From Ulva prolifera (taxonomy: Eukaryota > Chlorophyta > Ulvophyceae > Ulvales > Ulvaceae), in assembly GCA_023078555.1 (NCBI GenBank), contig CM041202.1:1043022-1107021 (forward strand): a stretch of DNA of 64,000 nt, given 5' to 3'. Positions 1,398-61,402 of this stretch are shown here, piece after piece. The notes beneath the pieces are model-generated. The model did no database searches, was not told where the DNA came from, and worked only from the letters and a program-made list of their open reading frames with translations. Position 1 is the first letter of the stretch. Each line of letters starts with the position of its first letter. The position numbers and the translations under genes are program-made.

Positions 1398-2555
1398 CAC
1401 ACCCACGCCACCATCAAAACGCAACACAGACCAATGCACCCACGCAACCGCAGACATCAGCACCCGCCCCGGTCGCAGCAATACACATGATGATCTGTGC
1501 ACACATGCCTGACGCCTGTACACGCCTTTACTCTGCGTGTATCCTTGACTAGGGCACAACGTGCAAAGCAAGCAGCATCGGCGCCAAAATCGTGCCACCG
1601 GGCAAACACCCACGTCCGGACCGATGGCCAGCACGGGTCCGGACCCTCCGGCATTCAATAGAATGTGTTACGCAGTTCGCTTTCTGCGGCATAGCCCATG
1701 GGGGAACAGCTATCCGGAGATGTATGCAGATGTTGTCCGAGTCGGAACGGAAGATCTCTGTGAACTCAAAACTGTGGGCGGCAGGTGTGGCCTGCTGGGG
1801 TGTGGGCATATGTCCGGATCCGCACCTTCCGTGCACTGCCTGAGGAGCCACTGTTGGCTGTACGCGACATCACATGCTGCGGCTCCAAGACGCTCCGGCT
1901 TGACGCTGTCAAGGCCTGGACAGCACATTATCCTTGCTGGCATTTGACGAGCTCCGATGGCATCAGATTTCGGAACTGTGGACTAGTTGTCCGCGGCGCT
2001 CTGCGGTGTCCGCAATCGCGGGCAGTATCGTCTCCCAACAGACTGTGAAGCCTAAGAGGCGACAGGTTTCATCGAGATAGTGCCCGTTAAAGTGCTGTTC
2101 ATGCAAGGACAGGCGAGCCGTCGCCAGGGGCTTGAAAATTCGCACCCAGAACGATCACTAAATCTGCGACGGGCTACGTCGACATCTCGTGTACTCCATT
2201 TGCGACCACCAGACACGAACTGACTGGATTTATATGGAGTGAACTCGAAGATCTGAATGCGCGGAGGCTGATCATTGATGTTGGCACCTCGGACTCCAGA
2301 CTGGAAGCACTTGCAGGTACGCCCTAAAGATGTGAGCGAAAACGTTTGAGCGCATACTGGATTTGTTAATCGGCATGTGTACTGCAGCGCCACAGGGGTC
2401 TGTGATGCCGTTCACAAAACCGCTGGTCACAAGGCGCTTAAGCCACTTTGGTGCACAGTTTCGCGTGTGATCCTGAACGTGATTCAACCATGCTATTGCC
2501 TATGTTGAGCTGATGTCCTTCTGTCAAAAAAATTCATTAGCCTGCTCCTGTCAGA
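1398..2555. other. No gene recognised
   Basis: Mixed-composition DNA with only short overlapping frames on both strands. No splice-supported exons, RNA genes or repeats with a second copy in the window were recognised. Confidence 0.45.
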
Positions 2556-2559
2556 TCTT

Positions 2560-3046
2560 CTGTATTGGCTCGCATGAGTGCGTGAGGCTTTCGCGCAAAG
2601 TGGTCGAGGGATGTGCAGATGGCGAGATCTTAGCTCCAGTGTCGCTATCACAAATTCTTTGGAGTCCTGTACCCCAAAGATAGAACAGGGAAACGGGGAA
2701 GGGCAGCTTTTCTTGACCGGTTTATCGTCTACATCTCGGCCAACAGGTGTGTCCCACCTCTGCGATCGACGACATCACTGCTTGATCACTTGGGACCTCG
2801 ATGGCAAGTTCATCGTGCGAAGAACGTCTGTATTGCCAAGAGTTGGCGTGCGCACCATATCTGCTCGCCGCTGCTGTCGCGCCTTACAGCTCAACCCGGC
2901 ACGCCATGGGTTGCATTGCAAGCTCGTGATCAGGTACATTGAGCACGACTCAAACTAGCAGGAAAACTTCACTATGGGGTGATCGATCAGGGCGTGACCC
3001 CGTCGGTGTGCCTCGTTGTCCGTATTGTGTAAGGCAGTTACAACCA
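2560..3046 (+). repeat. Degenerate dispersed element, copy 1 (pair with 49060-49480)
   Basis: Shares an ordered series of matches with 49060-49480: GACGACATCACTGCT, TTGGGACCTCG, a TTGCATTGCAAGCT/TTACGTTGCAAGCT block, GTGATCAGGT, and GTGCCTCGTTG at the end. Translated fragments agree in places (CKLVIR; VPRC near the 3' end), so the ancestor may have been coding. Reading frames are now broken. It lies immediately upstream of the truncated reverse-transcriptase element. Confidence 0.55.
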
Positions 3047-3114
3047 GCTACTTAGCCTGTCTTGCAGCCTGTCTTGGAGCGCTACTTAGCCTGTCTTGCA
3101 GCCTGTCTTGGAGC
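3047..3114 (+). repeat. 34-bp tandem duplication at retroelement 5' junction
   Basis: Two adjacent copies of a 34-bp unit (3047-3080 and 3081-3114), each beginning GCTACTTAGCCT and containing GTCTTGCAGCCTGTCTTGG. GCTACTTAGCCT is also present at 4961-4972 and 5237-5248, at the 3' junctions of the two following element copies. It is therefore the duplicated target site. Confidence 0.85.
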
Positions 3115-4844
3115 CTGTCTTGGAGCGCGTCGACGCGTCAGGCGCCGGCGCACCTGTGGTGGCGTACCTTGACGACATCAGCATTGCGGGCGACCTCGCG
3201 GCTGGAGCTGCCGTGTTCCGGCGGCTGTGCGTGGAAGCTGACGGGGTGCGCAGCATTGGGCTTGAGGTGAACCCTGCAAAATGCGGCGTCCACAGCGCCG
3301 ACGCCGAGGCGGCGGCCGCCGTGGCCGCAGAGCTCGGCATTCGGGATCTGCACGCGGGCTTCAAGGCTGTCGGCACGCCGCTGGGCACCCCGGAGTACGT
3401 CGCCGAGGTGCTGGACGCGCGGGCGCGCGAGGTCGAGGGCCTCGTCGAGACCCTCGTGCGCATCCCGCTCTCAGTGCAGGCGCAGTTCCTCCTGCTGCGT
3501 GTGTCCCTGAGTGTGCGCATGACGCACCTGATGCGGACGGTGCCGTATGCCGTGCTCGAGCCGCACATGCGCAGGGCGGAGGCCGCTGTGTGGCGCGGTG
3601 CCGCCGCAATCCTGTGCCTGCCGCCGGAGGTTGCGGAGGCTGCTGCCGCGTCTGACAACTCGGCCACTGACGCTGAGACGCGGCGGCTTGCTTACCGGCT
3701 GATGTCCCCTGTCAGGCATGGCGGGCTCGGACTGACGATGCTGGTGGACAGCGTCGCTGACGCGGCTTTCCTGTCGGGGGCCGGCACGGCCGAGCGCAAC
3801 CTCGCCGGCTGCCCGGACCTGCTCCGCCCCCTCCGCGGCCACAGCCGGGGCAGTCTGTTGCAGCGCTGGCAGGGCTTGTTCGACGAGCTGCATGAGCTGC
3901 TGGGGTGGGAGGCGGATGCCCGTGACCTGCCGGACGAGTTCGTCTCGGGCAAGCTGCTAGCGGCCCAGCGCGAGGTGGGGCGCGCGGTCGCGGACCATGC
4001 GGCCTCACTCGTGCTACAGGGCATCGACCTCGACACGCCGGCCGGCAGGCGGGAAGCGGCGTGGCTCAGGAGCGCTTCGGGGGGGCCTGCAGGCGCCTTC
4101 CTCTCCGCTCTGCCGGGCGGCGTTCTCACCATGGGCGACGACATGTTTGTCCTGGCGGTGTGGCACCGCCTGCGATTCCGCGTCCCGACGGACGTCCCCC
4201 CCCCTCCGTGCAAATGCAGTGCAGGTGTTGCCGCCGAACCAGACCACGCCATGGTCTGCAAGAAGGTGGCAAAGGAGACCCAGATGCGCCATGATAACCT
4301 GGCTCGTGCCTTGCGCCTGGTCGCCTCTTACGCCGGACTGCAGTCTGCCCTGGAGCCGCTCTACCGTGCCCTCGCGAGGGGCGCGGGTGTTGCGCTGAAT
4401 CGCCGCGGGGACGTCGTCGTGGTCATGCCGCGCCTGGAGATGGCGGCCGTGGACGTCGTGGTCACGCATGCGCCGGCGGCCTCATACGTGGCCGCTGCGG
4501 CGCGGGAGACGGGTGCGACGGCGGAGCGGGCGGAGGACAGGAAGCGGGACCGCTTCCGGCGGGACGTGCCTGACCATGCCGCGTTCCGGTTTGTTCCGTT
4601 TGCGGTCGAATCGTGTGGCTTCATGGGCAAGGCTGCCGTGAGGTTCGTCGGTCAGTTGGGGGATGTGGCCGCTGCCAGTGGGCGCATCTCCAAAGGCGCG
4701 TTTGTCCAGTGGGCGCTGCGGGTGTTGTCGGTGTCATTGCAGCGCGGCAATGCGGATATGTATCGGAAGTCTGGGCTTGTCATCTCTCGGGAGCAAGGGT
4801 TGCGGTATGATGCGGGTCTGGAGGACGCGATCCTGCCGGACTGA
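3093..4844 (+). pseudogene. 5'-truncated non-LTR-type reverse transcriptase ORF (copy 1)
   Basis: The open frame of about 580 codons keeps only the C-terminal part of a retroelement polyprotein. Near its start is YLDD followed by ISIAGD (3165-3182), the catalytic box of reverse transcriptase motif C. The preceding palm and finger motifs are missing, so the copy is 5' truncated and no natural start exists. Around residues 370-400 is a Cys-x-Cys...His-x-x-x-Cys...Arg-His pattern resembling the zinc knuckle of algal LINE-like proteins. The last 130 residues (AAVDVVVTHA, KRDRF, FVPFAVESCG) look like a PD-(D/E)XK-type nuclease fold. The ORF ends in TGA and is followed by the 3' tail seen throughout the window. 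Base composition is far more GC-rich than its surroundings. GCTACTTAGCCT flanks it on both sides. Two more copies differ by few bases, implying recent activity. Confidence 0.85.
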
Positions 4845-4960
4845 GTTGTGAGTGCGGTTGTAGTGTTCGTGTGTGTGTGTGTGAGTGTATGTTGCAGTTG
4901 ATTCGGATGAGATTCGGTTTCAGTGTTTGTTTTCTCCCGTTCACTCTTTTGTAAACGATG
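4845..4960 (+). repeat. 3' tail of reverse-transcriptase element (tail family 1), copy 1
   Basis: Follows the TGA directly: GTTGTGAGTGCGGTTG, a short TG stretch, then TTGATTCGGATGAGATTCGG, CAGTGTTTGTTTTCTCCCG and TTCACTCTTTTGTAAA. The same string follows the other two element copies and recurs as solo short insertions. The target duplication begins at 4961. Confidence 0.9.
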
Positions 4961-4972
4961 GCTACTTAGCCT

Positions 4973-5236
4973 CCAAAGGCGCGTTTGTCCAGTGGGCGCT
5001 GCGGGTGTTGTCGGTGTCATTGCAGCGCGGCGATGCGGATATGTATCGGAGGTCTGGGCTTGTCATCTCTCGGGCGCAAGGGTTGCGGTATGATGCGGGT
5101 CTGGAGGACGCGATCTTGCCGGGCTGAGTTGTGAGTGCGGTTGTAGTGTTCGTGTGTGTGTGAGTGTATGTTGCAGTTGATTCGGATGAGATTCGGTTTC
5201 AGTGTTTGTTTTCTCCCGTTCACTCTTTTGTACAAT
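4973..5236 (+). pseudogene. Second, severely 5'-truncated copy of the reverse-transcriptase element
   Basis: Starts CCAAAGGCGCGTTTG, matching about 4690 in copy 1. It encodes only the last roughly 46 residues (KGAFVQWALRVLS to DAILPG, stop at 5125-5127) and then the 3' tail ending TTTTGTA. It is flanked by GCTACTTAGCCT at 4961-4972 and 5237-5248, the same target word used by copy 1. It differs from copy 1 at a few positions (GDADMYRR instead of GNADMYRK). Confidence 0.9.
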
Positions 5237-5248
5237 GCTACTTAGCCT

Positions 5249-5594
5249 CCTAGGCCAGGCAGCTGCCCCATGCCGTCTTTCACCACACTCTCTCTGAGTT
5301 GCAAGGGCAGTGTTCTTAACATACGCAGCTAGCGCCGCAGTACAGCTTTGCGCAGGTCTGCTTGATGTAGCCTTATGCTCTGGCTGCCAACGTGCCAGTC
5401 GCGCTAGGTGAACATCTGTGGGACAACAGGGGCCAGTGTGCCCAGGGCAGCTCCGAGAACGCATGCATGTTCTCTGTGGCTGGCACGATACGCCTGTTCT
5501 TCGAACTGGAATAGTTGTAAGTCCCCGTAGAGCAAGTTGTCGGATCTGGTGGCAGCTGAATTGATAGACCACCGGAAACTGTTCATCGTCTGTA
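5249..5594. other. No gene recognised
   Basis: Unique sequence after the retroelement pair. No supported ORF, RNA gene or internal repeat. Confidence 0.5.
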
Positions 5595-5599
5595 CCTAC

Positions 5600-5770
5600 C
5601 CCCGCCCTTATTTCGCCCTTGGAAAGTGACATGTCGCCCTTACTGTCGCCCTTAGATTTCGCCCTTATTTAGGGTGGCACTTTTTGAAGCCTAATTAAGG
5701 GCGGCATGACTCTACACAAGGGCGGCACTAAGGGAGGCCCTTCTTTGCCATTGTATTAAGGGCGACTTGC
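5600..5770. repeat. Cluster of direct and inverted CGCCCTT motifs
   Basis: CGCCCTT occurs five times between about 5603 and 5666. Its complement AAGGGCG (or AAGGGAG) then occurs about four times between 5697 and 5764. The arrangement resembles the terminal regions of a small inverted-repeat element. Similar CGCCCTT/AAGGGCG pairs occur near 9768-9830 and 46828-46852. Element class is not identifiable. Confidence 0.5.
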
Positions 5771-11175: not shown

Positions 11176-11187
11176 ATGTCACAGTGA
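11176..11187 (+). repeat. Target-site duplication, left copy (ATGTCACAGTGA)
   Basis: 12-bp direct repeat, repeated exactly at 11304-11315, bracketing the hammerhead-bearing element. Confidence 0.85.
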
Positions 11188-11303
11188 ACTAACTGAGGTA
11201 GAAAGTTCACTGGTTGATGCTGTATTACATGAACATCACGGAGCGGCATAACATGTTTCGGCCTTGCCAAAGGGCCTCATCAGACGCCTACGTGGGCCAA
11301 GCA
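11188..11303 (-). mobile_element. Short hammerhead-ribozyme retroelement, copy 1 (116 bp)
   Basis: Begins ACTAACTGAGGTAGAAAG on the plus strand and is about 95% alike over 107 bp to the element at 61188. Each has its own unrelated flanking duplication (12 bp here, 23 bp there), so these are independent insertions. On the ribozyme strand both share the same 3' end (ending CCTCAGTTAGT) but differ at the 5' end, the pattern left by target-primed reverse transcription. No protein is encoded, so it must move in trans. Penelope-like elements and retrozymes are the known groups that carry type I hammerheads; which one applies here is open. Confidence 0.8.
11237..11294 (-). ncRNA. Type I hammerhead ribozyme, copy 1
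   Basis: Reading the minus strand, stem I is CACG + GGCGU pairing with AUGCC + CGUG, with an internal loop UA/GCUC. The core is CUGAUGA (11277-11283). Stem II is GGCC/GGCC closing loop CUUUGGCAA. Then GAA, the self-complementary ACAUGU as a minimal stem III, and U as the cleavage-site nucleotide before AUGCC. All invariant core bases (C3 U4 G5 A6, G8 A9, G12 A13 A14, A15.1-U16.1, H17) are present. Stem III is so short that cleavage in a dimer, as known for newt and retrozyme hammerheads, is likely. Confidence 0.8.
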
Positions 11304-11315
11304 ATGTCACAGTGA
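11304..11315 (+). repeat. Target-site duplication, right copy (ATGTCACAGTGA)
   Basis: Exact repeat of 11176-11187. Confidence 0.85.
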
Positions 11316-13278: not shown

Positions 13279-21872
<8,594 letters not shown>

Positions 21873-43471: not shown

Positions 43472-44171
43472 CTTGATGCAGTGGCGAAGGAGACCCAGAT
43501 GCGCCATGATAACTCGGCTCGTGCCTTGCGCCTGGTCGCCTCTTACGCCGGACTGCAGTCTGCCCTGGAGCTCTACCGTGCCCTCGCGAGGGGCGCGGGT
43601 GTTGAGCTGAATCGCCGCGGGGACGTCGTCGTGGTCATGCCGCGCCTGGAGATGGCGGCCGTGGACGTCGTGGTCACACATGCGCCGGCGGCCTCATACT
43701 TGGCCGCTGCGGCGCGGGAGACGGGTGCGACGGCGGAGCGGGCGGAGGACAGGAAGCGGGACCGCTTCCGGCGGGACGTGCCTGACCATGCCGCGTTCCG
43801 GTTTGTTCCGTTTGCGGTCGAATCGTGTGGCTTCATGGGCAAGGCTGCCGTGAGGTTCGTCGGTCAGTTGGCGGATGTGGCCGCTGCCAGTGGGCGCATC
43901 TCCAAAGGCGCTTTTGTCCAGTGGGCGCTGCGGGTGTTGTCGGTGTCATTGCAGCGTGGCAATGCGGATATGTATCGGAAGTCTGGGCTTGTCATCTCTC
44001 GGGAGCAGGGGTTGCGGTATGATGCGGGCCTGGAGGACGCGATCCTGCCGGACTGAGTTGTGAGTGTGGTTGTTGTGTTCGTGTGAGTGTGTTTTGATGT
44101 TGATGCGGATGAGATTCGGTTTCAGTGTTTGTTTTCTCCCATTCACTCTTTTGTAATATCTTGATGCAGTG
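43472..44171 (+). mobile_element. Retroelement copy 3 with 12-bp target duplication
   Basis: CTTGATGCAGTG at 43472-43483 and 44160-44171 brackets a 5'-truncated copy ending TTTTGTAATAT. Includes the ORF fragment and the complete tail seen after 4845. Confidence 0.95.
43484..44056 (+). pseudogene. C-terminal fragment of reverse-transcriptase element ORF (copy 3)
   Basis: About 190 codons, nearly identical to the end of copy 1 (from AKETQMRHDN to EDAILPD, TGA). It holds the Arg-His end of the zinc-knuckle-like motif and the whole nuclease-like region (VDVVVTHA, KRDRF, FVPFAVESCG). One codon is deleted (ELYRA for EPLYRA) and a few residues differ (SYLAAA for SYVAAA). Very low divergence implies recent transposition. 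Confidence 0.9.
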
Positions 44172-51925: not shown

Positions 51926-60912
<8,987 letters not shown>

Positions 60913-61164
60913 GGTCTCTCTCTGTTGCTCTGCACATGTTGGCAGCTGTCATGGTGCAGAAAACAGCAGTAATGAATGGCCAGACACATATTCGCAAACA
61001 CAGCAAGAGGACCTCTTCTGCAACAGGGGTCGAGTCCTTCCTGGCCTCTGGACCTGCTGCCAGATGTACACATCCTGGATTTCGTCTGGCAAAGTCTCAA
61101 TGGACACCGTTCATGTCACGACTGCGAGAACGGGTGTGGGTACCCCATAGCACACATTGTCCTT

Positions 61165-61187
61165 GTCACATGTACAACAAGTAACTG
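61165..61187 (+). repeat. 23-bp target-site duplication, left copy
   Basis: Begins GTCACATGTACAACAAG; repeated exactly at 61380-61402. Confidence 0.9.
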
Positions 61188-61379
61188 TACTAACTGAGGT
61201 AGAAAGTTCACTGGTTGATGCTGTATTACATGAACATCACGGACCGGCATAACATGCATGTTTCGGCCTTGCTAAAGGGCCTCATCAGACGCCTACGTGA
61301 GACACCGAACCAGCTCGCAAGTTCCCTAATATGCAATCCTCTAGAGCGAGACCGACCGAGACTGGAAGAGAAGAGACGT
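61188..61379 (-). mobile_element. Short hammerhead-ribozyme retroelement, copy 2 (192 bp)
   Basis: Bracketed by a perfect 23-bp direct repeat. The first 112 bp match the element at 11188-11303. It extends about 80 bp further at the end that is 5' on the ribozyme strand, so copy 1 may be a 5'-truncated version. No reading frame. It lies about 280 bp upstream of the copy C start codon, with the ribozyme in the same orientation as the gene, so it could sit in the promoter or 5' leader. Confidence 0.85.
61238..61299 (-). ncRNA. Type I hammerhead ribozyme, copy 2
   Basis: On the minus strand: stem I CACG + GGCGU with AUGCC + CGUG (internal loop UA/GGUC), core CUGAUGA, stem II GGCC/GGCC with loop CUUUAGCAA, GAA, stem III from self-complementary ACAUGCAUGU, and U before AUGCC as cleavage site. 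Differences from copy 1 are confined to loop II, the stem I internal loop and a 4-nt insertion that keeps stem III palindromic, which is what constraint on the RNA fold predicts. Confidence 0.85.
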
Positions 61380-61402
61380 GTCACATGTACAACAAGTAAC
61401 TG
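61380..61402 (+). repeat. 23-bp target-site duplication, right copy
   Basis: Exact repeat of 61165-61187. Confidence 0.9.

Follow-up and report, generated by a model that had tools for sequence, protein, structure and literature searches.

A putative Chlamys-like Penelope-like element with a type I hammerhead motif near its 3' end in Ulva prolifera

Introduction

The type I hammerhead ribozyme consists of three helices, is open via stem I, and is recognized by the core bases C3 U4 G5 A6 N7 G8 A9 and G12 A13 A14, together with the A15.1-U16.1 pair and H17. Penelope-like elements (PLEs) of the endonuclease-first kind are said, in the abstract by Craig and colleagues, to be without canonical hammerheads. 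To our knowledge no hammerhead is known in any of them, and in the literature searched on PLEs and hammerheads no title or abstract opening reports one.

Hammerheads are otherwise already known from PLEs (PMC7761336, PMC11167929), and their role there was called unknown in a 2020 review (PMC7761336). In PAc, a Poseidon element of Anolis, reverse transcription starts from two adjacent internal sites downstream of the hammerhead, and uncut RNA is the main substrate in vitro (PMC11167929). The hammerhead as a 3'-terminal fold is likewise known from Terminons (PMC6431247).

The element of Ulva prolifera reported here compares with these systems as follows. It resembles Naiad and Chlamys in the position of a GIY-YIG domain before the reverse transcriptase (RT) motifs, a CxC triplet in the linker, the lack of cysteine in the first 125 amino acids (compatible with the CCHH-less Chlamys type) and the presence of some inverted and tandem tail pieces, and is unlike them in having a type I hammerhead core near its 3' end, canonical hammerheads being reported as absent from such elements. 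With PAc it shares the location of the hammerhead a short way before reverse transcription begins (85-92 nt there by our own arithmetic, 63 nt here) and more than one 3' end form, whereas in PAc RT precedes GIY-YIG, copies stand in tandem with pseudo-LTRs, the hammerhead overlaps the start of the ORF (it follows the ORF here) and the 3' ends lie 30-40 bp apart (4 bases here) (PMC11167929). Unlike canonical PLEs, its long copies, whose 5' end is uncertain, have no second 5' hammerhead or pseudo-LTR that could be seen. Terminons (PMC6431247) are alike in a hammerhead forming the 3'-terminal fold with a short tail directly after it and in mostly 5'-truncated copies, and unlike in having no PLE endonuclease and in attaching to telomeric repeats, as opposed to the endonuclease, dispersed sites and target duplications found here. 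Finally, plant and animal retrozymes also bear a hammerhead on a small mobile sequence, but they occur in tandem or flanked by LTRs, as units with a defined length (PMC7229834, PMC7761336), in contrast with the single, variably truncated copies of Ulva.

Results

The window (the whole 64-kb stretch of DNA analysed, from a genome of 88.9 Mb in 44 contigs) contains two inserts on its minus strand, both interpreted below as 5'-truncated copies of the 3' end of a PLE. The first, of 191 bp (61188..61378), lies between perfect target-site duplications of 24 bp (61164..61187 and 61379..61402), and includes a type I hammerhead motif (61237..61300, minus strand) and a tail running from the hammerhead to the common 3' end (61188..61236, minus strand, ...CTCAGTTAGTA), where reverse transcription would start. 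The second, of 116 bp (11188..11303), has the same 3' end, a hammerhead motif at 11237..11294 (minus strand) and target-site duplications of 12 bp (11176..11187 and 11304..11315). A preliminary description had presented the first insert as a mobile element of 192 bp with 23-bp repeats; the flanked insert stands with sizes corrected by one base each, and so do its mobility and its target-site duplications; it is one of many dispersed copies in the genome. Outside the element, the neighbouring gene, called copy C, has its first ORF segment (63 aa) at 60721..60912 on the minus strand, so that its ATG at 60912 is about 275 bp downstream of the 3' end of the insert, in good agreement with the shared strand and the distance of about 280 bp given before.

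All the hammerhead features named in that description can be read from the sequence. On the minus strand, the window insert has CUGAUGA, GAA, the A15.1-U16.1 pair and H17 in the core, a stem II of GGCC/GGCC, a two-part stem I (GGCGU/AUGCC and UCACG/CGUGA) and a stem III made by the palindrome ACAUGCAUGU, 4 bases longer than in the other 21 aligned forms; stem III counts 3 bp in the window copy and 2 bp in the main form. Cleavage of the window copy is predicted between 61251 (U17) and 61250 (A1.1). The core pattern occurs twice in the 64-kb window, at 61261-61288 and 11256-11283 on the minus strand, and never in 100 shuffles, and a model trained on the family recovers the same two places only (96.8 and 93.5 bits), a scan that shows only the absence of a third, as both window hammerheads belong to its training set. 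Support from Rfam, to which the preliminary description had looked, did not materialize: no hammerhead model matches the window at gathering thresholds, and lax settings on 601 bases give Hammerhead_HH9 at best (16.8 bits, E 0.3, against a gathering threshold of 52). The window copies carry the type I hammerhead sequence motif, for which a curated-model score above gathering is not required, but they fail that formal test. Among collections of viral contigs and genome contigs searched for relatives, 90 and 69 pattern matches were obtained and none confirmed, the exact core pattern having no match in the viral contigs.

A search with the window insert gives at least 41 matches in the genome (the best 40 of 211 candidates having been scored). 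In 30 loci that were cut out, there is one common 3' end, and the similarity stops variably upstream, after ~200 to ~1700 nt or at the locus edge. The insert forms the 3' terminus of a colinear series of 5'-truncated copies that reaches 4.46 kb, its longest members being L031 (4461 nt, contig 3), L033 (4262 nt, contig 1) and L032 (3859 nt, contig 8), measured from where L031 diverges upstream from the contig-5 copy, a point that may not be the true 5' end. Over 55 copies read letter by letter, a nonrandom set (26 are the best insert matches and 20 were picked from tails with 2-3 mismatches) in which L002/L003 and also L017-L019 share identical flanks, BLAST lengths range from 34 to 4461 nt up to the common 3' end. 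Judged from these alignments, the 191-bp insert represents the broken-off 3' end of a selfish element 4.4 kb or more in length, and the lengths of 116 to 192 bp earlier ascribed to a stand-alone non-autonomous family are 5' truncations of one autonomous element. A long form of the 3' end, CAGTTAGTA, is recognized in 32 of the 55 copies, and one shorter by four bases in several others (including L015, L025, L043, L046 and L065).

Genome-wide, the tail pattern is found at 87 places and the hammerhead pattern at 72 (each with up to 3 mismatches; 0 for the reversed controls). Since even the closest pair among the 87 tail places is separated by 3.4 kb, there is no head-to-tail array of units; the tandem copies anticipated earlier are lacking, none being seen among the copies, and the boundary expected to recur in other copies is common at the 3' side and at no 5' side. 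Each long copy has one hammerhead, and neither a second one nor a pseudo-LTR was seen at its 5' side, whose true end is uncertain. Recent activity is apparent from L026 and L029, identical over 956 nt at separate sites with distinct duplications.

Several loci have other features of their own. L017, L018 and L019 lie on contig 7 near 54 kb, 6.305 Mb and 6.495 Mb of 6.52 Mb, and represent a duplication, possibly subtelomeric, since their flanks are identical and two of the copies are close to both contig ends. L036 has a nuclear-type (eukaryotic) SSU rRNA fragment (1485-1970) and L037 a bacterial-type one (near 1500), presumably plastid-derived, each embedded in other sequence, and L035 shows Ty3/gypsy polyprotein-like frames (~1950-5600) a few kb upstream of the PLE copy.

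The long copies have an open frame of 1022-1028 aa, whose start is overlapped by a second frame opening with a proline-rich stretch. A GIY-YIG domain is detected by Pfam at aa 118-200 in all three long copies (E 3.8e-8, above the Pfam cut-off), and RT-like motifs follow in the order LPK..RPLV (654), FDVKNMFTELP (731), AMGGYISP (822) and YVDD (860), over aa 654-863, which we take to be the motif order of PLE reverse transcriptases. Neither a strict nor a looser motif-order pattern, both composed after the protein was seen, is matched in 20000 shuffles. Pfam RT models do not match the protein even at E 10, and PDB sequence searches returned no useful match and no solved RT, so that RT is assigned here by the motifs typical of the family. 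With RT placed by motif only, the order is endonuclease first; a CxC triplet (CSC at 470) lies between the two parts, and the first 125 aa are free of cysteine. An endonuclease ahead of the RT, with a CxC between them and without a CCHH motif, is the arrangement reported for the Chlamys type by Craig and colleagues in 2021. The link to Penelope-like elements suggested from the insert finds support in the GIY-YIG domain of the long copies, their RT part being placed by motifs. A genome search with the GIY-YIG family identifies 4 places (6 of 6 candidates scored), all of them copies of the element (C1, C8, C3 and C5, the last a partial match in a broken copy), and all four (L038, L039, L040 and L046) have a hammerhead at their 3' end, 63 nt before the common terminus, which ties the hammerhead to the autonomous element; in the C5 copy stem II is mispaired.

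The ends of the copies are informative about insertion. Target-site duplications of net score 9 or more are present in 19 of the 55 copies, compared with 0.09% of mismatched flank pairs; the one of L031 is a match to its own inverted tail piece, leaving 18, and copies below this score may reflect age, a 5'-end deletion or a misplaced 5' end. The target after the 3' end starts with CA in 45/55 copies. Extra tail pieces occur in 4 of the 55 (20 copies having only 40 nt downstream to inspect), L031 with an inverted tail at the 5' end and an inverted piece beyond the 3' end, and L033, L079 and L083 with a second direct tail. The element shows the habits of PLEs, i.e., 5' truncation, a fixed 3' tail, target duplications and inverted or tandem tail pieces. 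As insertions down to 38 nt bear target duplications (L091, without hammerhead, has one of ~11 bp), these signatures point to target-primed reverse transcription that starts at the tail and yields complex ends like those of PLEs. The element protein would nick the DNA and begin reverse transcription at the tail, and synthesis would frequently halt early, giving very short inserts.

In each of eight divergent copies compared, the hammerhead exceeds the 280-354 nt upstream in conservation (88-97% versus 74-92%); 86 of 88 catalytic cells are retained, both misses being in L067. The downstream tail is 81-98% conserved in seven of the eight (L061 has no tail), about as much as the hammerhead, so the conservation is not specific to the ribozyme. 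In an alignment of 22 of the 30 distinct hammerhead stretches (L054, L079, L081, L082, L085, L088, L090 and L096 were dropped as 5'-truncated or internally broken), 93.8% of cells pair, versus 26-44% with partners slid. One pair is altered on both sides, in 2 of the 22 sequences, and most covariation measures are not above shuffles; at one position of stem I, where 20 sequences have G-C, L053 and an old minus-strand copy in L065 show A-U. In a family this recent, covariation is too weak to prove the structure. The old L065 hammerhead, near 2683 on the minus strand, differs in stem I and has a GUC cleavage site, which points to a diverged subfamily.

By predicted energies, the hammerhead fold lies above the minimum by 2.3 kcal/mol for the main form, 1.8 for the 116-bp copy and 3.8 for the window insert, with folding z-scores of -0.54 and -0.06 (63 and 94 of 200 shuffles fold at least equally well). 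Since stem III is only 2-3 bp, cleavage may need the element protein or a dimer, and dimeric cleavage is reported for minimal PLE hammerheads (PMC7761336). Two copies co-fold at -46.1 versus -38.0 for two single folds, the predicted co-fold itself being no hammerhead.

The predicted cut lies 63 nt before the common 3' end, so that cutting would separate the body from the priming tail, and copies starting at A1.1 are expected if the cut 3' fragment served as template. Such a start is found in two of the 55 copies, L083 and, with a poor alignment, L080; a further four start within 7 nt of the site (L086, L087, L094 and L097). A pattern across the cut is present at 92 places, 48 of them exact (up to 3 mismatches; reversed control 0), with at least 3 of the four letters just upstream of the cut matching in all 92, and a pattern beginning 6 nt below the cut at 113 places or more. 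The 92 places that run through the site imply that the RNAs behind most copies were uncut there. A hammerhead-core match lies within 150 bp upstream of 46 of the 87 tail places and is absent there from 41; among 17 of the latter read by letter, eight keep at least part of the core, stem I-truncated or mutated (L081, L082, L085, L088, L090, L092, L093 and L096), and nine begin below it. Early truncation in or near the hammerhead may be due to stalling of reverse transcription there.

Discussion

The insert is very probably a 5'-truncated copy of a Chlamys-like endonuclease-first PLE, placed by the insertion mode of such an element. The view raised in the preliminary description, of a non-autonomous hammerhead family, here read as a stand-alone retroelement similar to a retrozyme or a SINE, can draw on the many copies shorter than 200 nt, on the 41 tail places with no core match close upstream, and on the existence of animal type I retrozymes, whose target duplications, if any, exceed 4 bp (PMC7229834). 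Against it, the copies have no common 5' end and range from 34 to 4461 nt (in the 55 read, 36 of the 87 tail copies being outside that set), the short copies are colinear with long ones encoding protein, and even the closest tails form no head-to-tail units; the simple form of this view is refuted, and what is left of it appears extremely improbable. As no tandem array was seen, nor a second hammerhead at the 5' side of the long copies, the element is by structure no retrozyme, and a Terminon was rejected on the presence of the endonuclease and on target flanks that do not look like telomeric repeats.

What the hammerhead does is less clear. We tentatively propose, with somewhat less than even confidence, a role of cleavage that is not a step of insertion: the hammerhead would cut some transcripts between body and tail, the cut RNAs being lost as templates, or readthrough RNA being freed, and the uncut RNAs would be those inserted. 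That cutting is not an insertion step agrees with PAc, where hammerhead mutants still inserted. The hammerhead could instead be a structured relic, a fold kept for recognition by a protein or as a mark of the priming end after cleavage was lost, in line with the uncut templates of the 92 cut-spanning places, the greater stability of alternative folds, the equal conservation of tail and hammerhead, and the anole PLE, in which hammerhead mutations left insertion unaffected and cleavage was protein-dependent (PMC11167929). However, the catalytic cells kept in divergent copies include the C3, G8 and A15.1-U16.1 positions, and we consider a relic rather unlikely. An action on the neighbouring gene, with the insert cleaving its 5' leader, would suit its strand and its distance from the ATG, but the insert is one among many dispersed copies, and we consider such an action very unlikely.

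If endonuclease-first PLEs do lack canonical hammerheads, the combination found here is new. We give an even chance to its being the first endonuclease-first (Chlamys-like) PLE with a canonical hammerhead, set in the fashion of Terminons directly before the start of reverse transcription. In that case, the partnership of hammerheads and PLEs either predates the split of endonuclease-first and endonuclease-last elements or was regained, and the hammerhead belongs with the end of the RNA where priming occurs and not with paired terminal repeats, which bears on how long ago hammerheads and telomerase-like reverse transcriptases became linked. With a single hammerhead seen, 63 nt ahead of the priming end, and dozens of short inserts that record the copied RNAs, the element makes it possible to address directly whether cleavage promotes, impedes or has no bearing on retrotransposition.

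The window has further features of interest. Frames at 3096-4844, with a YLDD motif, and 43481-44056 have near-identical C-terminal ends and probably belong to another retroelement, not a PLE. Between 18000 and 61000 on the minus strand, cysteine-rich frames recur with phrases such as ADGVTGYGEGTV..DGC, probably representing an intron-split family of secreted proteins. Finally, about 1.7 kb of near-pure TG/CA microsatellite at 13800-15500 fits the strong skew at 12-16 kb.
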